DNA from: Bdellovibrionales bacterium | GTDB taxonomy: Bacteria > Bdellovibrionota > Bdellovibrionia > Bdellovibrionales > UBA1609 | NCBI GenBank assembly: GCA_020850475.1 | Contig: JADZEO010000058.1 | Span: 1 to 36,470 of the forward strand | Direction of reading: 5' to 3' | DNA length: 36,470 nt | Shown here: positions 771 through 23,733 of the stretch, piece by piece | How the letters are laid out: each line of letters begins with the position of its first letter | Numbering within the stretch: position 1 is the first letter of the stretch | Made by a program: the position numbers and the translations under genes | Notes under the pieces: generated by a model | Seen by the model: only the letters and a program-made list of their open reading frames with translations | Told to the model about the DNA's origin: nothing | Database searches by the model: none

Positions 771-3700
771 TTAGTGAACTTCCACAATCCCGAGTGAAAT
801 TTCCCCGCCACCAAACACTGGCTTCACCACCACTTGCAAACGAGTTCCCGGTTCTTCTTTACTGATCCAAGGGATATCGAGCTGATTCGCTCCAGGTGCC
901 AGTCTCACTTGGGCAGCCGATGCGACCAAAGGTTCCTCCGCCTTTTCAAGCGGACGGCGGTAAAGCTGCCCCACCGCTTTGGTGCGATGCCAGTCACTAC
1001 CGGTATGCGAAAAGGGGCGGCAGACAAAACGCAACTTCCCCCCGACTTTGTCCTTGGAGATCATATAATTGAGGCCCCAAGTTTTGTGCGACTTCAAGTC
1101 GGCACTCACAAATTCAGTCAGACACTCAGTAAAACCAAAACTCATATCACTGGGTTCAACCGTGTTGACCTCGAGCTCGTAGACACCTGGTTCGGTGATC
1201 GCAAATTCCGCGACAAAATCTCCACTGGAATCAAGACCGGTGACCACCGTTCCCGCCGGAGTGGGCGCTCGGAGTAGTTCCACTCGAACTTTCTCGCCCA
1301 CTCGACCGTGGTTGAATACTTTGAGCTTGCCCGTGTCACTGCCTTCGGGTTGGGCCACCACCTGAGTCGCCAGTTGCAATTGCAAGGGTGCCGCTTCGAT
1401 CTCGAGAGGAAACACCGCCTCGGTTCCCACTGCTCGCGCCAGGGTCAGTTGATAATCCCCGGTCTTCGCCGTGGGCATAAAAAACTCTTCCTCGTCCGCC
1501 GGTCCCCAAAAGCTCGGAATTTGGCCAATTCCCATGGGATCAAAAAATTCAAGAGACAAAAAGTTTCTCCTCACATCACTGATGGCGGTCCGAATCCGGT
1601 AGCCCGCAACGCGCGGATCAGCGCCAAGATGAACTCGAACTGCATCGCGAGTCTCTAAATTAAATTGCATTCTGTGGGGGCTGTCCCAGGGGCGATCATC
1701 CACCACAGTGAAGGGAATCGTGTGAAGCCTCAGTCCCGACGACTCATCGATCAGATGGACTTCACCCAAGAACTCCTGACCCGGCCGCGACTGCATTTTT
1801 TCCGCGAGAAATTTGCCGTTCACTCTCACTCCCAGGCGAGCCATCCCCACACTGAGCCAGCCTCGGGCCGGGCCGCTCAGCCACGGAGCTGAGTATTCGA
1901 TCTTGAGTGGTCGCAACAGATTTTCGCCGACGGCCGCTGCCACTTTGGGAGACAAAACGCCGGTGACTCGGACTCTGACTTCGAGATCTTCGGCGACTTC
2001 GCGGGCGTGGAGAAAGGCGCCTCTTTGCGCCAAATCGTCTGGGCCCTTGAGGGGAGCAACCACGGTTTTTACGCGGATGAACTGAAGGCCTGCAATGAGT
2101 TGCCGATAAATCTCGATCGCTTTCGGCAATTTGGGCAGTCCGTAACCTTGATCGACAAAAGCTGTGCCATTGAGCGGCTGTCCGCTCAAGCGCAAGGCAT
2201 GCACAACGGTTTCGGCATCAATGGGAAGACCCAACTGTTTAAGTCCTGAGATTAAGACAACCGCCGCGCCGGCCAAGGCGGGAGATGCGGAACTCGTGCC
2301 ACTAAATGCTTGAAATGCATTTTCGGGACCGGCGTGAGTGAGGCTTGAAAGAGGTGCCAGTAGCAGCGGCCCTCCGCCTCCGTCAGGACCCGGCCCGCGC
2401 GAAGAATAATAAATCACCCGCCCTTGCTCAGGAAGCCCCGTGACCCCATGAACATACTCATCGAGTTCGCGACTCACAAAGGCCCCGGCCACCAAAACAT
2501 TGTCGGGGTATATGCTGCGACGGTTAAGTGAGTTTAGTCCAGGGCCGTTGTTACCCGCCGAAAAGCTGATCACAAAGTTGTACTTTTTAACTAGGGCTGA
2601 AATGGCGGTCGCCATAAACTCTTGCGCCGCCACTGACTCAAAGAAGAGACTGTAGCTGATATTGACCACCTCAACCTTTTGCTCGCCCAACCACTCAAGT
2701 GAGCGGACAAAACTGCCAATCGTGTAAAAGCCATCTTCAAAGTTTTTATCCGGCACCGAAAAGTCGACATCCATCAGTTGAGCGCCTGGGGCCATCCCGT
2801 CAAAGCGCCCTCCAATTTGATGCCCCACCATGACCGAAGCAACGCCTTCGCCGTGGCTATCCCCTGAACTTTCGCCTTCTGACAATCGGACGACGGCGTC
2901 GGCTTCATTGAATTCGGCTACGACCGGCACCCCTTTTTCCCGTCGCCAATATCCATATTCCCCAGTCGCCTTAAAGGACCCAAAACAATCAGAGTCGGAC
3001 TTGTCGTTGGCATCGGCATCAAGACAGATGCGGGTTTGATCGCCTTTCTTGACAACTACGACCGCAATTTTAGTTTGCTTGCCGTCGGCATTGAGATCAA
3101 AAGTTTGCCCGTCATAGCTCTTAAGTGAAGCTTCATCGAGCACTCCTTCCCAAGCTGTATCGTAGCTCTCGGTGACCGTTTGAAAATACGGCGAGGCGGT
3201 TTTGGCATCCGCAATCAACTTGACCTGAGTATCGAGCAAATGGCTCGGCCAATGATGCTGAAGAAACTTGCGTTTACCTTCGGTGGTCCTTTGGAATCCT
3301 GAACCCGATGGCGCTACGCCATCGTCGATCACTCCGGCTAAAACCCCGCGGCCGTCAAAGGTGGGATGATTCTTCAGTAACTCTGGTAGCGCAAAGTCTT
3401 TGCGCGCCAGGTAGTAAACCTGTTCGTCGGGTTCATCGGCGGCCGTTGGTTTTGTAGCTCGCAGGCGAGTCGAAGCCGGCAACCAACGGGCCGAGCGATC
3501 CACACGCAGTCGATTGATTTTGTCATGATCGCCACGGATTTCGAGGACGTGATCACCGCGGACTGCTAAGCCCGCCTCGCGGGCCTGCTTGATTAGCTCC
3601 GCTGCCGAATCGCTGATCATCAAGATCCCGGCTTGCCCTTCGGCCTGAGTCACCGGTCGAACCGACGCCAGTGTGCGGCTGAATTTTTCTTGAGAGGAAC

Positions 3701-3773
3701 AACTAAAAATCAACCCCGGCAGAATCGCCAAGAGTCCCACTCGCCCAGACCACCCCACCCCGATTTTCCTCAT
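771..3773 (-). CDS. Subtilisin-family (S8) serine protease lipoprotein, tripeptidyl peptidase II-like
   Basis: A 1000-residue secreted serine protease. A lipoprotein signal peptide ends in the lipobox IFSC (Cys25). The S8 catalytic triad is complete: Asp150 (GVIDDG), His307 (DSHGEG) and Ser494 (SGTSSASP), with the oxyanion Asn408 in SAGNNGPG. An insert of about 150 residues separates Asp and His, whereas classic subtilisins have about 30. This insert, FDGRGV before the Asp, and the roughly 480-residue beta-rich C-terminal part resemble tripeptidyl peptidase II more than secreted subtilisins. The insert carries Asp-rich DLNADGK and DADANDKSDSD stretches that may bind calcium. The likely site of action is the cell surface or periplasm, degrading host or prey protein. 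The ATG start has GGGGGTAA just upstream. It lies 127 bp downstream of the alpha-2-macroglobulin gene on the same strand and may share its transcript. The protease call is firm; the TPPII subgroup is less so. Confidence 0.88.
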   Translation of the reverse strand: MRKIGVGWSGRVGLLAILPGLIFSCSSQEKFSRTLASVRPVTQAEGQAGILMISDSAAELIKQAREAGLAVRGDHVLEIRGDHDKINRLRVDRSARWLPASTRLRATKPTAADEPDEQVYYLARKDFALPELLKNHPTFDGRGVLAGVIDDGVAPSGSGFQRTTEGKRKFLQHHWPSHLLDTQVKLIADAKTASPYFQTVTESYDTAWEGVLDEASLKSYDGQTFDLNADGKQTKIAVVVVKKGDQTRICLDADANDKSDSDCFGSFKATGEYGYWRREKGVPVVAEFNEADAVVRLSEGESSGDSHGEGVASVMVGHQIGGRFDGMAPGAQLMDVDFSVPDKNFEDGFYTIGSFVRSLEWLGEQKVEVVNISYSLFFESVAAQEFMATAISALVKKYNFVISFSAGNNGPGLNSLNRRSIYPDNVLVAGAFVSRELDEYVHGVTGLPEQGRVIYYSSRGPGPDGGGGPLLLAPLSSLTHAGPENAFQAFSGTSSASPALAGAAVVLISGLKQLGLPIDAETVVHALRLSGQPLNGTAFVDQGYGLPKLPKAIEIYRQLIAGLQFIRVKTVVAPLKGPDDLAQRGAFLHAREVAEDLEVRVRVTGVLSPKVAAAVGENLLRPLKIEYSAPWLSGPARGWLSVGMARLGVRVNGKFLAEKMQSRPGQEFLGEVHLIDESSGLRLHTIPFTVVDDRPWDSPHRMQFNLETRDAVRVHLGADPRVAGYRIRTAISDVRRNFLSLEFFDPMGIGQIPSFWGPADEEEFFMPTAKTGDYQLTLARAVGTEAVFPLEIEAAPLQLQLATQVVAQPEGSDTGKLKVFNHGRVGEKVRVELLRAPTPAGTVVTGLDSSGDFVAEFAITEPGVYELEVNTVEPSDMSFGFTECLTEFVSADLKSHKTWGLNYMISKDKVGGKLRFVCRPFSHTGSDWHRTKAVGQLYRRPLEKAEEPLVASAAQVRLAPGANQLDIPWISKEEPGTRLQVVVKPVFGGGEISLGIVEVH

Positions 3774-11001: not shown

Positions 11002-13596
11002 TCAGGTGGGGCGGGTAGCGGTGGGACTAGAGCCACTCGTCTTAACCGGACTTGTGGTGGCCGGGCGACCCGTGCCGTTGCCTCCGCCACTAGAACCGGT
11101 ATCTCCACCCTCAGAGAGATGGAAGTCATGGCGGGTTGCGGGAATTCCCCTTGCCGCCTTAAACTCCTCGTCAGAAAAGTCATCGACTTGCACATAATCC
11201 AGTCTGAGACGTTCAGCTTCCTGCATGATTTTGTATTCGCTCGCATCTATGAGACCCTGCTGCTTGGCTTGCTCCACCAAGTAACGCATCGATTTTTTCT
11301 TCGGCAACTGCTTGGCTTTGACGGCCTTTTTGATTTTCTTCTCCACCGCTTCCGCCTTATTGACCGCAGTAAACGCCGCTTCTAAGCGTCCCATCGCTTC
11401 CTGCTCTTCTTTCGGAATGTAGATATTGTCGGTCAAACGGTCGCGCTGTTCACCTTCGGTCTGAATCAAGCGCGCCACTTTTTGCCCGAGGCGATCATCA
11501 GGCCCCATGGTAAAGAAGTTGAGGCGCGACCACCACCTCATCGGGCGAGTGAAGAACCAGGAAAGACCCGGCACCGTCATGTTGCCAAAAATGCCATCAA
11601 AGGCCTGTTGAATCTCACCAAGACAATGTCTCATCGAGTAATGCACAAACGGCAAATCCTCTTTGCGACAGCCCTCAGCTTCCCATCGGCGTAAGACTGC
11701 AGTCCCGATAAACATCCAACTGAGAACATCGGCAAAGCGTCCCGTGAGGCGCTCTTTCACTTTGAGTTGCCCACCCAAGGAACCCATGGCGATGTCGGCC
11801 ATGATCGCAAATGAGGCTGATGCCCAGGCCAGCTTTTGAGCATAGCGACGAACCGGCGCGGGCCGTCCCGTCATCGCGAGGCGACCTCGCGTGACACTCA
11901 AGACCACTGAGCGGAACAAATTGCGCACGATATGACCAATGTGGCCCCAGAAGGCCGCATCAAACTCTTTGACGTCGCCTTTTTCAACCGCATCCACTTC
12001 GCGGAAGGCAAATGGGTGAGCCCGCATCGCACCCTGACCAAAAATAATTAGCGTTCGGGTGAGAATGTTAGCGCCTTCCACGGTGATGCTGATGGGGGCC
12101 CCCATGTAGGCGATGCCAATGAGGTTGCGCCCGCCGAGAGAAATCCCCTGGCCGCCCATGATGTCCATGCCATCATTGAGGGCCTTGCGCATTCCTTCGG
12201 TCGCATTGTACTTGGCCATTGCGGTCACAACAGGCGGTTTCACACCCTGATCTAAGGCGCTGAGCACATATTTGCGCATGGCCTCAAGGTAATAGGCCGC
12301 ACCCGCAATACGCGCCAAGGGTTCCTCGATGCCTTCAAACTTACCAATGGAAATTCCAAATTGGCGACGAACCACCGCATGGGCCGATGCCACTCGAGCC
12401 GTGTATTTGGTCCCCACCGTGCCTTGTGCAGGCAGCGATACTCCGCGCCCCGCGGCCAGCGATTCCATGAGCATGCCCCAGCCATGGCCGGCCTTTTCGA
12501 GGCCACCGATGATGCAGTCCTCGGCGTTAACGACCACGTCGTGTCCTTCCATCGGACAGTTATGAAAGGGAATCGTCAGCGGATCATGGCGTCGCCCGAC
12601 CACCACACCCTTGGTCTTAGTCGGAATCAGCGCACAAGTAATACCAACATCTTCGCCTCGACCCAAAAGATTGTCAGGATCGCGCAGCTTAAAGGCCACG
12701 CCTAGCACCGTGGCAATCGACGCCAAGGTAATCCAGCGCTTCTTCCAGGTCACCCGTACATAAATTTTGCCGTCGTCACCTTTGAACAACACACCCTCAG
12801 ACAGAATCGAGCCCGCATCGCTGCCGGCGGTCGGTTCCGTCAGTCCGAAGCATGGAATTTCTTCGCCGCGAGCGAGCCGCGGCAGATAATAGTCTTTTTG
12901 TTTTTTAGTTCCGTAGTGATTCAGCAACTCGGCAGGACCCAAAGAATTGGGGACCATCACGAAAATCGCCAGCGCGCTCGAGCGGGACGACAGTTTATGA
13001 ATCACCTGACTGTGAGCATAGTGTGAAAAACCCAGTCCATCGTATTCTTTAGGAATAATCATACCCAAGAACTTGTGCTTTTTGCAGTAATCCATCGCCG
13101 ACTGAGGAATGTCGCGCTCCTTCCAAACTTTCCAGTCATCGACCATTTTGCAGACTTCTTCGACAGGTCCGTTAAGAAAGTCTTCTTCTTCTTTGGTCAA
13201 TTTTGGATAAGGCTGATCCATCATCAGCTTAAAGTTCGGGTTTCCCGAAAACAGTTCCTTTTCCATCCACACCACGCCCGCTTCAAGGGCCGTACGTTCG
13301 GTGGGACTGATCTTCGGAATGATCTTGAGCGCCTTCATGGTTTTCATGATCGGGCCCGACAAGACGAGTTTTCGAATCGGCTTGATCACCCCAATGGCGG
13401 CCACCACCAACAGGGCAAGGCACAACCAAACAGGTGCGCCAAAGCCAAAAACCGCTCCGAGGACTACCACCGACCATAGCCAAAAGGGCGATCCAAAATA
13501 TCCCACCATCACCAGGACCAAAACGGTGGCTAAGACCACCAACATTCTTGGCTCCTGAACCGCCAAAATTCCATAAATTGAATCAAGTGCTCCCAC
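11002..13596 (-). CDS. fadE: FadE-type membrane-anchored acyl-CoA dehydrogenase
   Basis: The first step of beta-oxidation: FAD-dependent dehydrogenation of acyl-CoA to trans-2-enoyl-CoA at the inner membrane. The protein has 864 residues, against 814 in E. coli. Three hydrophobic helices lie at about 18-34, 38-53 and 55-70, then the acyl-CoA dehydrogenase fold. Long stretches agree with E. coli FadE from memory: GPVEEVCKMVDDW, VPNSLGPAELLNHYGT, YYLPRLARGEEIPCF, GITCALIPT, KFEGIEEPLARIAG, and VEGANILTR with the conserved Glu507. The C-terminal 50 residues are Gly/Ser/Thr/Pro-rich and absent from E. coli FadE. The start is the GTG at 13596, because AGGAGG sits 9 bases upstream; a longer frame to 13686 would run across the promoter and operator. 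It is divergent from a TetR gene that probably represses it, and ends with its own terminator. Confidence 0.94.
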   Translation of the reverse strand: MGALDSIYGILAVQEPRMLVVLATVLVLVMVGYFGSPFWLWSVVVLGAVFGFGAPVWLCLALLVVAAIGVIKPIRKLVLSGPIMKTMKALKIIPKISPTERTALEAGVVWMEKELFSGNPNFKLMMDQPYPKLTKEEEDFLNGPVEEVCKMVDDWKVWKERDIPQSAMDYCKKHKFLGMIIPKEYDGLGFSHYAHSQVIHKLSSRSSALAIFVMVPNSLGPAELLNHYGTKKQKDYYLPRLARGEEIPCFGLTEPTAGSDAGSILSEGVLFKGDDGKIYVRVTWKKRWITLASIATVLGVAFKLRDPDNLLGRGEDVGITCALIPTKTKGVVVGRRHDPLTIPFHNCPMEGHDVVVNAEDCIIGGLEKAGHGWGMLMESLAAGRGVSLPAQGTVGTKYTARVASAHAVVRRQFGISIGKFEGIEEPLARIAGAAYYLEAMRKYVLSALDQGVKPPVVTAMAKYNATEGMRKALNDGMDIMGGQGISLGGRNLIGIAYMGAPISITVEGANILTRTLIIFGQGAMRAHPFAFREVDAVEKGDVKEFDAAFWGHIGHIVRNLFRSVVLSVTRGRLAMTGRPAPVRRYAQKLAWASASFAIMADIAMGSLGGQLKVKERLTGRFADVLSWMFIGTAVLRRWEAEGCRKEDLPFVHYSMRHCLGEIQQAFDGIFGNMTVPGLSWFFTRPMRWWSRLNFFTMGPDDRLGQKVARLIQTEGEQRDRLTDNIYIPKEEQEAMGRLEAAFTAVNKAEAVEKKIKKAVKAKQLPKKKSMRYLVEQAKQQGLIDASEYKIMQEAERLRLDYVQVDDFSDEEFKAARGIPATRHDFHLSEGGDTGSSGGGNGTGRPATTSPVKTSGSSPTATRPT

Positions 13597-13657
13597 GTAA
13601 AACAACCTCCTGTTCCGGTTGACCGAAAGTCGTCTTGCTCGACGGCCCTCAGATCTA

Positions 13658-13686
13658 ATTTTAGGACAGCTCCAACCCCTTTTCAA
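13658..13686 (-). promoter_or_regulatory. Sigma-70-type promoter of fadE
   Basis: On the minus strand TTGAAA (13686-13681) and TAAAAT (13663-13658) are 17 bases apart, each a 5-of-6 match to consensus. The -35 element overlaps the end of the perfect palindrome at 13682-13699, so a protein bound there would block RNA polymerase. Confidence 0.65.
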
Positions 13687-13699
13687 TCATTTGATTGAA
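13682..13699. promoter_or_regulatory. Operator 1: perfect 8-2-8 palindrome, likely TetR-family binding site
   Basis: TTCAATCA-TT-TGATTGAA is a perfect inverted repeat. It sits between the divergent fadE and TetR genes and overlaps the fadE -35. Short palindromes in such a divergent space are the usual targets of the adjacent TetR-family regulator; binding itself is inferred. Confidence 0.65.
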
Positions 13700-13723
13700 T
13701 TGTTCAATCTTTTGATTAATACT
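13695..13723 (+). promoter_or_regulatory. Probable promoter of the TetR-family gene
   Basis: TTGAAT (13695-13700) is separated by 17 bases from AATACT (13718-13723), the core of a TAATACT sequence. The ATG at 13733 would begin 2-4 bases after the transcription start, so the mRNA may be nearly leaderless, in line with the lack of a clear ribosome binding site. Confidence 0.4.
13703..13720. promoter_or_regulatory. Operator 2: imperfect copy of the palindrome, 21 bp from operator 1
   Basis: TTCAATCT-TT-TGATTAAT repeats most of operator 1, with 15 of 18 positions identical. Start-to-start spacing is 21 bp, two helical turns, so two dimers would sit on the same DNA face. It covers the probable TetR-gene promoter. 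Confidence 0.55.
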
Positions 13724-13732
13724 AAGACGCGT

Positions 13733-14431
13733 ATGCCAAGAATTCGTGAAAATCCCTCAAATCGCGCGAAAAAACGAAAGACACGGTCTCAATCTGAGAC
13801 AAAAAGCCGATCTGGTCCTCGTCCTTTGAGAGCGAATGACCCATCCACCCGCCAAACCCTCTTGCTCGCTGCAAAAAAGCTGTTTGCCCGGCGCGGCTTA
13901 GGCGGAACCTCCATTCGCGATATTGCTCAAGAAGCCAAGATGAACTCAAGTATGATCAGCTATTACTTTGATGGCAAGGACGGACTCTATCGGGCTTGTC
14001 TCGAAGAGATTGCGACGACGCGCCTGCAGTTTACTCGCGAAATCCTGTCGAGGCCTAAGACTTTGGAAGAGTATCGCCTCCGACTCAAGATGTTCGCCGA
14101 AAGTCTAGTTCAGCTGTTTCTCGACGACCGCGACACCGGCCTCATCGTGATTCGCGAATATGACCGGATCAACTCGCCGGCCGAACGGGTTTTTATGGAA
14201 AATTTCCTGAAGCTCTACGAAATGATCATTCAATTCTTTCAGGATGCGCAAAAGCGGAACTATATCAGTACCAAGCTCGATCCCTTTACTCTGGCGAGCT
14301 TGTTCTTTGGCGCACTCACCAGCCAATTGCGACTCGACCACATCAAGGAGAAGGCTTACAACCGCAGCCTCAAACGGGCCGATGAGCGCGAGAAGATTTG
14401 CGCTCATTTGGTCACCTTGTTTTCAAGTTAG
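13733..14431 (+). CDS. TetR-family transcriptional regulator, probable repressor of fadE
   Basis: A 232-residue DNA-binding protein. A basic N-terminal tail of about 35 residues (RAKKRKTRSQ and similar) precedes a TetR_N helix-turn-helix domain at about 38-85: RQTLLLAAKKLFARRGLGGT, then SIRDIAQEAKMNSSMISYYF. The YYFDGKDGLY motif is classic for TetR_N. The rest is an all-helical ligand/dimer domain with less conserved sequence. An acyl-CoA or fatty acid ligand is inferred only from its divergent position to fadE. The ATG at 13733 is the best start; the frame extends upstream to 13619, but that part would cross the operators and promoter. The long basic tail is unusual and may add DNA contacts. 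Confidence 0.87.
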   Translation: MPRIRENPSNRAKKRKTRSQSETKSRSGPRPLRANDPSTRQTLLLAAKKLFARRGLGGTSIRDIAQEAKMNSSMISYYFDGKDGLYRACLEEIATTRLQFTREILSRPKTLEEYRLRLKMFAESLVQLFLDDRDTGLIVIREYDRINSPAERVFMENFLKLYEMIIQFFQDAQKRNYISTKLDPFTLASLFFGALTSQLRLDHIKEKAYNRSLKRADEREKICAHLVTLFSS

Positions 14432-19222: not shown

Positions 19223-20374
19223 TCAATCCTTACCCAACAATTCGCGGGCAATCAGCTCTTTCATAATTTCGTTGGCGCCACCATAGATTCGTTGCACGCG
19301 CGCATCCACGTACTGCCGAGATATTGGATACTCAGTCATGTAGCCGTAGCCGCCAAACAGCTGCAAGCAACGATCAGCAACTGAACTCTGCGTATCACTG
19401 ATCCAGTACTTGGCCATACTGACTTCGCCCATCAACTTCTCGCCGGCCAGGTGTCGCGGAATGAGGTCATCCAAAAACGAATACGCCAACTGCACTTGGG
19501 TCGCACACTCGGCCAAGGTAAAACGCGTGTGTTGTTGATTCGCCAAAGGTTGGCCGAACACCTGTCGCTCTTTGACATAATCCCGAGTCATCTGCACACA
19601 CGAGTCGGCAGCAGCGGCGGCCCCAATTGCTAAGACCAATCGTTCCTGCTGGAGATTCTCCATTAAATAACGCCAACCTTCACCCTCGGCACCCAAAAGA
19701 TTTTCCTTGGGAATCACACAGTCCTCAAAGGCCAACTCAGAAGTATCTTGAGCATGAAAGCCGATCTTCGGTAAATTGCGCCCCCGCCTAAATCCGGGAC
19801 GATCACTCTCAATCACAAACAAGCTGATACCTCGATGTGGCTTGGCTGGGTCAAAGGAAGTTCGCGCTGCCACCACAAAGAGATCGGCAATTTGCCCATT
19901 GCTAATGAACGTCTTAGTGCCATTCAAGATATACTGGTTGTTTTTGAGCTCCGCCTTGGTTCGCAAGGCTGCGAGATCAGAGCCAGCGTCCGGCTCGGTC
20001 ATTGCAATGGCCAAAATGTGCTCGCCCCTCACACAACCGGGGGCCCATTTGGCGAGCTGTGCTTGGTTGCAAAACTTTTCCAAGTAAGGAAAGACGATAT
20101 CACTATGGAGCGGGAAAAACACCCCGGGTACCGAGTGAAAGTAAAGTTCCTCGGCGACGATGGCCGCAAATCGAAAGTCAGCCTCAGCGCCGCCCCATTT
20201 TTCAGCTGCCGTTGGACACAAAAACCCTTGTGCTCCGGCGCGCTGGTAGATTTCCCTCGGCACCTGACCTTGCTTTTGCCACTCTTCATAGTGACCGAGA
20301 ATTTCGTCCTCAATAAAGCGACGAAAGGTTTCGCGAAAAGCCTCGTGACTCTCATCATACAATCGCCGCTTCAT
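19223..20374 (-). CDS. Acyl-CoA dehydrogenase of the long-chain (LCAD-like) type
   Basis: A 383-residue soluble flavoprotein that oxidises acyl-CoA to enoyl-CoA, a second dehydrogenase beside FadE. Typical motifs are AMTEPDAGSDLAALRT (about 124-139, flavin contact), GTKTFISNGQIADL, QERLVLAIGAA and the C-terminal LFGGYGYMTEYPISRQYVDARVQRIYGGANEIMKELIAREL. The last part and QQERL closely match mammalian LCAD from memory. There the catalytic Glu is the one in QERL, here Glu244, and not in the C-terminal YGG motif. Electrons would pass to ETF, whose genes are not in the window. The ATG at 20374 is chosen because it overlaps the end of the upstream fusion gene by 20 bp and has a purine-rich AGAGAAAGAG site; a longer frame adds 56 residues that overlap it entirely. 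Third gene of the beta-oxidation operon. Confidence 0.9.
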   Translation of the reverse strand: MKRRLYDESHEAFRETFRRFIEDEILGHYEEWQKQGQVPREIYQRAGAQGFLCPTAAEKWGGAEADFRFAAIVAEELYFHSVPGVFFPLHSDIVFPYLEKFCNQAQLAKWAPGCVRGEHILAIAMTEPDAGSDLAALRTKAELKNNQYILNGTKTFISNGQIADLFVVAARTSFDPAKPHRGISLFVIESDRPGFRRGRNLPKIGFHAQDTSELAFEDCVIPKENLLGAEGEGWRYLMENLQQERLVLAIGAAAAADSCVQMTRDYVKERQVFGQPLANQQHTRFTLAECATQVQLAYSFLDDLIPRHLAGEKLMGEVSMAKYWISDTQSSVADRCLQLFGGYGYMTEYPISRQYVDARVQRIYGGANEIMKELIARELLGKD

Positions 20375-22475
20375 GAAAACTCTTTCTCTTCCGCACCGAT
20401 TCCGGAAGTTTAAAGCTGTCTCCGTACTGGCGCGCCAAGCGATCACATTCAGCGCCAAAGGCCTCAATACCCAGAGAGTCGATGTAACTGAAAATTCCGC
20501 CGGTGTGAGGGGCAAAGCCCCAACCCAGTATGGATCCCACATCGCCCGCCACCGCCGAACGAATCACCCCTTCTTCCCAGGTTCGCACGGCTTCCACTGC
20601 TTGCGCGAGCAACAAACGTTTTTTGACCTCTTCAACACTTGGTTGTTGGGCCAAAGGTTTAAAGTGCTCTCTTAACTTCGGCCACAAACGTTTTTTGCCC
20701 TCGGCCGGATAATCATAAAAGCCTCCCCCTGATTTGCGCCCCAATCGGCCCAGCTTTTTTACCAAGAGCTCGGCGACTGCGGTTGCATCTGGCGCCAGAT
20801 CCTTTCCCGTGTCCTTTAGCGTGGCTAGTGAAATGTGATACACCAAATCCAAACTCACCTCATCGGCCACCGCGAGCGGGCCCACCGGCATCCCCGCCAT
20901 CTTACCCGCATTTTCGATCAACGCCGGCGCCACTCCCTCACGCAACAAAGTGCATCCTTGATTGACGTAGCTCTTAAACACTCGGCTGGTGAAAAAGGCT
21001 CGACCGTCGTTAACCACAATGGGAGTCTTCTTGAACTGCCGAACTAAATCCAAACAGCGGGCGATGGCTTCTGGTGAGGACTTTTCGCCGCGAATAATTT
21101 CGACCAATGGCATCTTGTCCACGGGTGAAAAAAAGTGCAGTCCAGCAAACTTTTCCGGTCGCTGACAGTACTCCGCCAAACTCGAAATCGGCAAGGTCGA
21201 GGTGTTGGAAAAAATAAACGCCGACGAGGGAAGGACCCGATCAACCGCCCCAATCACCTCAGCCTTAATTTTTCGATCTTCAATCACCGCTTCAACCACG
21301 GCTTCACACTCGGCAAAGGGTTGGTATTGATCCACAGGATGAATCAGCGCCAAGATCTTTTGCGCTTCCGCTTCCGTCATCTGTCCGCGCTGCACTCGAG
21401 TTTCGAGAAGACGTTGAGAGTAGCTTTTGCCTTTTTCGGCCGCCGCCAAGCTCATGTCTTTCAAAAAAACTTTGACCCCTGCCATCGCAGCGGAGTAGGC
21501 AATCCCTCCGCCCATCATCCCCGCCCCCAAAATTCCCAAACATCGAATCGGTTGGGCCTCAATGCCGGGCGGACGCTCAAGCCCCCCTGCTAAGGCATTC
21601 ACTCCTAAAAACAAGGTCCGCACCGTGTGGGCCGCCTCCGGCGAGCGCAAGCATTGTTCAAAATACCTTTCTTCAACCTGCAAACCCTGGTCGAGTGGCA
21701 ATTGCAGTCCTTCATAAACACAACTCATCACCGCCTCGACGGCCGGAAAATTTCCGTAAGTTTTTTTCCGCAAGTGAGCATTGCCAGCGGTAAAAGTCAT
21801 GTACACCGAGGGCGTTAAAACCCCTCCGCCGGGAATTTTAAACTTCTTGTCGTCCCACGGCTGGCGAATCTCTGCCTGGGCCAAGCAAAACGTCTCGGCC
21901 TTCTGCAGTAGTTCTTCGGGCGTCGCGGCTAGCGCGTCTACGAGTCCGGCCTCCAAGGCACGGCGGGGATCCAAGGTTTTTCCCTCGGCCAAAAGCGGCA
22001 ACGCCTTAATGATTCCGATCATCCGCGGCAAGCGTTGAGTGCCGCCAGCCCCTGGCAGCAATCCCAACTGGACTTCCGGCAGACCAATTCTGATTTTATC
22101 GTTGACCAAGGCAAGGCGATGGTTGCAGGCCAAACACAATTCATAGCCACCGCCCAAGGCAGAACCATTGATCGCAGCCACCACGGGTTTGGACCAAAGC
22201 TCAAGCTCTCTGAATGAGCGATTGAGGTCGCGCACCAAGGGTAAATTGCGCTGCACATCGGCCAAGGGCACCAGGGCCTTGAGATCAGCCCCTGCTAAGA
22301 AATCCTTGCGCGCACTGATAAAGATCGCGCCTTTTAACGAGGAATCTTGCGTCAGCTGCCGCACCAGTTTCTGGAAGGCTTCGATCGAATCTCGATTCCA
22401 AACATTGACCGGCTGACCCGCTTGATCGATGGTGACAATGGCGATGAAATTTTTATTTATATTGATCGTAAACAT
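20355..22475 (-). CDS. FadJ/FadB-type enoyl-CoA hydratase/3-hydroxyacyl-CoA dehydrogenase
   Basis: A 706-residue bifunctional enzyme for the second and third steps of beta-oxidation: hydration of enoyl-CoA, then NAD-dependent oxidation of 3-hydroxyacyl-CoA. The crotonase domain (1-190) keeps both catalytic glutamates, Glu112 (GGGYE) and Glu134 (GLPEVQLG). A linker leads to the dehydrogenase domain with NAD-binding GAGMMG at 317-322 and catalytic His447 (GLHFFSPVDKMP). The C-terminal dehydrogenase parts (about 490-690) include GRAFFTSRVF and LGRKSGGGFYDYP. The length fits FadJ (714). The gene order thiolase then fusion matches fadIJ of E. coli rather than fadBA, but this does not decide the subtype. 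The ATG has GGTGAGG 7 bases upstream, inside the end of the thiolase gene region; the gap to the thiolase stop is 8 bases, so translation is probably coupled. Confidence 0.93.
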   Translation of the reverse strand: MFTININKNFIAIVTIDQAGQPVNVWNRDSIEAFQKLVRQLTQDSSLKGAIFISARKDFLAGADLKALVPLADVQRNLPLVRDLNRSFRELELWSKPVVAAINGSALGGGYELCLACNHRLALVNDKIRIGLPEVQLGLLPGAGGTQRLPRMIGIIKALPLLAEGKTLDPRRALEAGLVDALAATPEELLQKAETFCLAQAEIRQPWDDKKFKIPGGGVLTPSVYMTFTAGNAHLRKKTYGNFPAVEAVMSCVYEGLQLPLDQGLQVEERYFEQCLRSPEAAHTVRTLFLGVNALAGGLERPPGIEAQPIRCLGILGAGMMGGGIAYSAAMAGVKVFLKDMSLAAAEKGKSYSQRLLETRVQRGQMTEAEAQKILALIHPVDQYQPFAECEAVVEAVIEDRKIKAEVIGAVDRVLPSSAFIFSNTSTLPISSLAEYCQRPEKFAGLHFFSPVDKMPLVEIIRGEKSSPEAIARCLDLVRQFKKTPIVVNDGRAFFTSRVFKSYVNQGCTLLREGVAPALIENAGKMAGMPVGPLAVADEVSLDLVYHISLATLKDTGKDLAPDATAVAELLVKKLGRLGRKSGGGFYDYPAEGKKRLWPKLREHFKPLAQQPSVEEVKKRLLLAQAVEAVRTWEEGVIRSAVAGDVGSILGWGFAPHTGGIFSYIDSLGIEAFGAECDRLARQYGDSFKLPESVRKRKSFHEAAIV

Positions 22476-22483
22476 GATTTACC

Positions 22484-23698
22484 TCACCCCACCCGCTCGA
22501 TGATGGTCGCAATCCCCATTCCGCCGCCAATACAAAGGGTCGCTAAGCCGCGGCGTTTTCCGGTTCGCTCCAGCTCATCAAGCAAGGTCATTAAAATGAT
22601 CGCGCCACTCGCCCCCAGAGGATGCCCCAGTGCGATGGCTCCACCGTTGACGTTGACCCGATCATGAGACACTTGTAGCTCTCGCATGTAATTCATCACC
22701 ACCGCTGCAAAAGCTTCGTTGACTTCAAACAAGTCAATGTCGGAAGCCTTGAGCCCAGCCTTGGCCAACACCTTTCGCGTGACCGGAACCGGCCCCGTGA
22801 GCATGATCGTCGGATCGGCAGCGGTTACCGCGCAAGCTCGAATGACGGCCCGAGGTTTGAGCCCCAATTTTTTGCCAGCCTCTTCGCTCCCGATAAGCAG
22901 AGCTGCGGCCCCATCAACGATGCCACTGGAGTTTCCGGCGGTATGGACGTGTTCAATCATTTCCAATTGCGGATATTTTTGTAGAGCTACGTAATCAAAA
23001 GCTCCCTCCTCACCCATCTGGGCAAAGGAAGGTTTGAGTTGGCCCAGCCCCTCAAGAGTCGTGTCGCCCCGCATGTGCTCATCGTGCTCGAGCAAAATCC
23101 TGCCGTTGAGATCTCGGAAAGAGACCATCGACTTGGCAAAACGCCTCTCCTCTTGAGCCCGCACCGCGCGCTGTTGCGAAGTCAGGGCAAACTGATCCAC
23201 CTGTTCGCGGGTAAATCCTTGCAGAGTCGCGATGAGGTCCGCAGAAATCCCTTGTGGAACAAAGTGGGTCTTAATTGCCAAACGCGGATCCGCTGCCCAG
23301 GCCCCACCGTCGGAGCCGATCGGGACATGGGACATGGACTCCACCCCACCGGCAATCAGTAAGGGTTCAATTCCTGCTGCAACTCGTGCCGCCGCTTGAT
23401 TGACAGCCTCAAGGCCTGATCCACAAAATCGATTGACGGTAACCCCGGCGACCGTCTCAGGCAATCCGGCTTCCATCGCCGCCGATTTGGCCACGTTAGC
23501 ACCCTGATCTCCAATCGCGGTCACACATCCCAAAATGACGTCTTCAATTTCATCGCCTTGCAAGCGGTTCCGTTGGCAAAGTTGAGTCAGAGTGGTGGCC
23601 GCCAACTCCACGGGCCGCACCGTGCTGAGCGCTCCTCCGGCTTTGCCCCGCCCTCGCGGTGTGCGAACTCCATCGAAGATCAGCGCGCTCAGTCCCAT
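22484..23698 (-). CDS. Acetyl-CoA acyltransferase (thiolase)
   Basis: A 404-residue thiolase for the last step of beta-oxidation, cleaving 3-ketoacyl-CoA with CoA to acetyl-CoA and a shortened acyl-CoA. The catalytic residues are all visible: nucleophile Cys92 (NRFCGSGLEA), His359 (NGGAIALGHPLGASGA) and the second Cys389 (LCIGGGMG). The VNEAFAA and HTAGNSSGIVDGAAAL signatures are also present. It is the first gene of the beta-oxidation operon: an ideal AGGAGG site sits 6 bases before the ATG at 23698. A longer frame to 23728 lacks support. It diverges from the CoA-transferase-like gene across 150 bp. No copy of the fadE operator palindrome is seen in that space, so regulation may differ. Whether its chain-length preference is FadA, FadI or AtoB-like cannot be told from motifs. 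Confidence 0.94.
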   Translation of the reverse strand: MGLSALIFDGVRTPRGRGKAGGALSTVRPVELAATTLTQLCQRNRLQGDEIEDVILGCVTAIGDQGANVAKSAAMEAGLPETVAGVTVNRFCGSGLEAVNQAAARVAAGIEPLLIAGGVESMSHVPIGSDGGAWAADPRLAIKTHFVPQGISADLIATLQGFTREQVDQFALTSQQRAVRAQEERRFAKSMVSFRDLNGRILLEHDEHMRGDTTLEGLGQLKPSFAQMGEEGAFDYVALQKYPQLEMIEHVHTAGNSSGIVDGAAALLIGSEEAGKKLGLKPRAVIRACAVTAADPTIMLTGPVPVTRKVLAKAGLKASDIDLFEVNEAFAAVVMNYMRELQVSHDRVNVNGGAIALGHPLGASGAIILMTLLDELERTGKRRGLATLCIGGGMGIATIIERVG

Positions 23699-23727
23699 GA
23701 ACAGCCTCCTTGGACAAATTGGAGTCA

Positions 23728-23733
23728 ATATTA
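23728..23733 (-). promoter_or_regulatory. Possible -10 element of the beta-oxidation operon
   Basis: TAATAT on the minus strand (23733-23728) lies 29 bases before the thiolase ATG, in an A/T-rich patch. No clear -35 element is seen 16-18 bases upstream, so an activator may be needed or this may be the wrong element. Confidence 0.3.

Follow-up and report, generated by a model that had tools for sequence, protein, structure and literature searches.

Within the 36,470-nt stretch of Bdellovibrionales DNA analyzed here (the window), the 136-bp gap (13597-13732) between a fadE gene and the divergent gene of a TetR-family regulator carries a palindrome that, going by its conservation in related loci and its loss from most relatives without the neighboring regulator gene, is very probably the docking site of that regulator and an off-switch for both genes. 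The explanation that best accounts for our observations, and in which we place considerable confidence, is that the adjacent TetR protein uses the palindrome as its operator, would repress both its own gene and fadE and would be released, most likely, by acyl-CoA. The site itself, TTCAATCATTTGATTGAA at 13682-13699, is a perfect 8-2-8 palindrome of 18 bp, and an imperfect copy with three mismatches, TTCAATCTTTTGATTAAT, occupies 13703-13720, the two being 21 bp, or two helical turns, apart from start to start; an earlier note on this DNA had described the same pair of elements between the two genes, and we treat them here as the predicted primary operator and the predicted secondary, degenerate one. 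Dinucleotide-preserving shuffles of the 136-bp gap gave a perfect 8-2-8 palindrome 64 times in 20,000 and never one accompanied by a second copy with at most three mismatches, while shuffles of the whole window yielded two such matches (palindrome plus three-mismatch copy) in 3 of 100.

On the reverse strand, fadE (11002-13596) encodes a long bacterial-type acyl-CoA dehydrogenase of 864 aa, as seen from its C-terminal ACDH_C domain (PF09317, E 5.8e-96) and a score of 1009 bits against the NF007000 cut-off of 600. Its start is most likely the GTG at 13596, because a GGAGG Shine-Dalgarno element lies at 13606-13610 (reverse complement) and the predicted N terminus, VGALDSIYGIL, is similar to that of the L012 ortholog. 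On the forward strand, the regulator gene (13733-14431, ATG at 13733) encodes 232 aa with an N-terminal TetR helix-turn-helix at residues 43-89 (PF00440, E 3.5e-13, 49.5 bits vs. a gathering score of 24), a recognition helix around NSSMISYY and an all-helical TetR fold in the AlphaFold2 model (pLDDT 89.8).

Among 59 relatives searched, 13 other genomes, Bdellovibrionales metagenome-assembled genomes, have an ortholog of this TetR gene divergent from fadE, with 41-58% identity in pairwise matches, and throughout these orthologous loci the adjoining gene codes for an acyl-CoA dehydrogenase. Absence of the palindromes beside such orthologous pairs was what the earlier note had named as speaking against its reading; instead, every one of the 13 gaps has the pattern wTCAATCr-N2-yGATTGAw, as do L117 (in G063) and L084, which brings the number of loci to 16 with the present one. 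In an alignment of 14 orthologous loci, all of which keep the primary site, no variation is seen at 13 of the 16 arm positions, a further one is kept in 13 of 14 and the two outer ones are kept in 11 of 14 (A/T), with most flanking columns near random; these loci share ancestry, so that such counts do not represent independent events. The spacing of the second copy is conserved as well: averaged over 15 loci, the position weight matrix (PWM) score of a second site is highest at exactly +21 (z 5.9), and 10 of 14 loci have their next-best match within 120 bp at +21. In L021, L023 and L024 the second site has been lost or can no longer be recognized.

Outside the pair, the motif is rare and mostly found in coding sequence. 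Its strict form occurs in 19 of 141 genomes of the order and only once in most of the family genomes that have the pair; the extra strict matches that were checked all lie inside open reading frames except one, that exception (L120) being one of four strict matches in family f8, the other three of which are in reading frames. The match at L120 1501-1518 (G087:C85:7181), ATCAATCACCTGATTGAA, is located outside long open reading frames in a genome of another family. In the genome of the window itself, 45 places match with up to three mismatches, and about 17 of these were checked besides the present pair, all being inside open reading frames with the exception of L006, where a different palindrome is found; a wider regulon was rejected on these grounds. 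The L006 element (1501-1518; G000:C10:75901), TTCATTCAAAAGAATGAA, is a perfect intergenic palindrome with a different half-site. Since the strict matches elsewhere lie inside reading frames, the regulator appears to be essentially local. A relaxed pattern run on 16 genomes returned four more intergenic matches, one of them before a thiolase gene: in G017 a strong copy, GTCAATCAATCGATTGAA, is placed just upstream of that gene and divergent from a malic-enzyme gene (L184 1511-1528; G017:C303). The orthologous thiolases that were checked are without a site of this type, and the G017 copy may have been added in that lineage or have arisen by chance. Likewise, no operator was found upstream of the β-oxidation cluster at 19223-23728 of the window, which encodes an acyl-CoA dehydrogenase, a FadB-like protein and a thiolase.

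We infer acyl-CoA as the ligand of the regulator from the nature of the target and by analogy with other TetR regulators of β-oxidation, which acyl-CoA releases from DNA (PMC6449355). It is possible, although we think it unlikely, that the same TetR protein binds the palindrome and represses but answers to a different effector, for instance a free fatty acid or other lipid signal, or else a small molecule of an unrelated kind. Attempts to name the protein through NCBIfam models failed and leave room for such a ligand, as its scores are far under the cut-offs of both the Bacillus-type FadR equivalog (NF053878; 23.7 bits vs. 200) and the Vibrio PsrA one (NF053516; 36.4 bits vs. 300), and the fold search on the AlphaFold2 model singles out no ligand class: the match to Bacillus FadR (3whb_B; Z 18.3, rmsd 3.0, 184 residues aligned) is tied with those to HapR and RutR, TetR proteins of quite different ligands. 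Weighing against an effector other than acyl-CoA, in turn, are the published precedent, the acyl-CoA dehydrogenase gene that adjoins the regulator throughout the orthologous loci and the thiolase gene that carries the site in G017.

That the adjacent TetR protein is the main reader of the palindrome is suggested by how the two are distributed. In the family, fadE was detected in 41 of 47 genomes, and among the 30 fadE loci read, 14 have an adjacent TetR ortholog and 16 do not. A strong site stands before fadE in all 14 of the former, each scoring at least 24.7 on the PWM, whereas among the latter it is absent in 14 of 16, with a single strong site (G007, PWM 23.1) and a single relic (G067, PWM 14.4) in the remaining two. 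Furthermore, genera g4, g23 and g25 each include genomes with both elements and genomes with neither an adjacent TetR gene nor a strong site at fadE, a joint absence that speaks for a shared history. The fadE-linked TetR orthologs form one clade (support 94/93); related TetR proteins outside it are associated with other palindromes, several of the form TTCAAA...TTTGAA, and their recognition helix mostly begins with NVS or NIS in place of NSS, differences that are in keeping with this TetR recognizing the site. The G007 exception is a full one, with both sites preserved 21 bp apart before fadE (PWM 23.1 and 19.9; L154 3437-3475, G007:C73), a response-regulator GGDEF gene in the position of tetR and no TetR ortholog detected beside fadE or elsewhere in that genome. 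It is the observation that favors a regulator acting in trans as reader of the palindrome, with the neighboring TetR in a lesser role, which we nevertheless consider improbable: any such protein would need to share the distribution of a site that is essentially single-copy and located at this pair, and the regulator gene and the site are absent together in the three genera just named.

The left arm of the palindrome supplies the predicted fadE -35 element (TTGAAA, 13681-13686, reverse strand), 17 bp from a -10 of TAAAAT (13658-13663, reverse strand), and the right arm supplies the predicted tetR -35 element (TTGAAT, 13695-13700, forward strand), likewise 17 bp from its -10, AATACT (13718-13723, forward strand), which lies under the right end of the secondary operator. 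The earlier note had the first palindrome overlapping the fadE -35, as it does, and missed that it overlaps the tetR -35 as well; its placement of the second over the tetR promoter is borne out, this copy covering the spacer and the -10. Its description of both promoters as well-formed σ70 types holds for fadE, which matches the consensus at 10 of 12 positions with a 17-bp spacer in a promoter scan, and not by the same scan for tetR (TTGAAT-17-AATACT, 8 of 12), although the spacing, the A at position 2 and the T at position 6 of the tetR -10 are fixed in all 14 aligned loci. The operator/-35 overlap and the 17-bp spacing are conserved across the orthologous loci, and on the fadE side 14 of 15 loci have -10 hexamers that match at three of six positions or better with a spacing of 16-18 bp. 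With the palindrome located at the -35 of both promoters, it is not expected in the transcript of either gene, and a reading of it as an RNA hairpin was dropped. A separate perfect and GC-rich palindrome, GCCCCGCGCACGCGGGGC, at 737-754 of the window, just beyond the 3' end of a subtilase gene (771-3773), is possibly a terminator. The tetR start codon follows its -10 after 9 nt (13718-13735), and an in-frame start codon 6-9 nt past the -10 recurs in 10 of 15 loci; because of this proximity the tetR mRNA is predicted to be leaderless.

This promoter geometry supports repression of both genes. That the TetR protein activates one of the two promoters, or regulates it in both senses, has precedent in the family, FasR being reported to activate (PMC7382501), yet it is very improbable here, where the operator holds both -35 elements and its second copy the tetR -10, so that a protein bound there would normally block the polymerase. 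As for the notion that the symmetry merely reflects back-to-back promoters with mirrored TTGAA hexamers and no protein site, each arm does hold a -35 match in its TTGAA, but promoter function does not account for the conservation of the inner TCA/TGA of each arm or of the second copy at +21, and most fadE genes that have no TetR lack the site in front of them, making it hardly credible.

In light of these results, we return to the palindrome as operator of the adjacent TetR autorepressor and fadE repressor. A TetR dimer would sit on the 18-bp palindrome, and since its mirrored TTGAA ends are the predicted -35 elements of both promoters, a single bound dimer could block RNA polymerase at both. 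Two turns away, over the tetR spacer and -10, the weaker copy may hold a second dimer that tightens autorepression, and an effector, most likely an acyl-CoA of the kind FadE would act on, would free the dimers and let fadE and tetR rise together. Binding and repression at the operator are predictions from sequence, and the gap shows what is expected of a divergently autoregulated TetR repressor, namely a palindrome that overlaps both promoters and is conserved together with the regulator; it has also been reported that TetR genes less than 200 bp from a divergent neighbor tend to regulate that neighbor (PMC3511530). The G007 sites without a TetR gene, the tie of FadR, HapR and RutR in the fold search and the fadBA-type genes of the window without a site all count against it.

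Searches of the literature with the letters of the palindrome returned primers and unrelated papers only, those combining Bdellovibrio with TetR and fatty-acid regulation returned nothing relevant, and no description of this fadE/TetR pair or motif was found in the literature searched. The mechanism is ordinary, an autoregulated TetR beside a β-oxidation gene being well known as a principle: as far as the literature was searched the operator sequence is new, and the kind of switch is known. Only tentatively would we go further and propose that this is a TetR switch particular to the lineage and distinct from FadR, PsrA and FadP: a single palindrome would combine the operator with both -35 elements, the repressor mRNA would be leaderless and a near single-gene regulon would gate β-oxidation at FadE in answer to a lipid signal new for the class. 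Throughout a family represented here by metagenome-assembled genomes alone, this TetR protein now has a predicted DNA code and a predicted target, and a single short DNA fragment would be enough for a direct test of how fatty-acid oxidation is controlled in these Bdellovibrionales.

Several known systems share parts of this design. Bacillus FadR, a TetR-family, acyl-CoA-released repressor of fatty-acid degradation, resembles the present regulator in its TetR fold, its linkage to an acyl-CoA dehydrogenase gene and its palindromic operator, and differs in the NCBIfam score given above, in the essentially single target site found here and in its half-site, which we take to be TGAATGA and which departs from TTCAATCA. 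The Thermus thermophilus FadR is again of the TetR type, controls fatty-acid genes and has a short palindrome as its site, but its operator consensus is the 15-bp TTRNACYNRGTNYAA (PMC5597230), as opposed to the 18-bp TTCAATCA-N2-TGATTGAA here, and its inner ACY-N-RGT is missing from our palindrome; the claim of the earlier note that the motif is unlike FadR, PsrA or FabR sites holds against this consensus, the one published site with which it was compared. Sulfolobus FadRSa, another regulator of the TetR family, has operators in the divergent gap next to its own gene, binds with two stoichiometries and is released by acyl-CoA (PMC6449355), although it is archaeal and controls a 30-kb cluster, whereas the strong sites here are confined to fadE/tetR. 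PsrA and FadP are proteobacterial members of the TetR family with a regulatory role in fatty-acid degradation, yet their regulons are multi-target, averaging 11 and 18 genes per genome, respectively (PMC5343134). The low score against the PsrA model also sets the present protein apart from PsrA. In tetR/tetA-type pairs, finally, the repressor gene is divergent from its target and the operators between them overlap both promoters. The fadE/tetR pair follows the same plan, except that both of its -35 elements come from one palindrome and its second site is found on the tetR side only.
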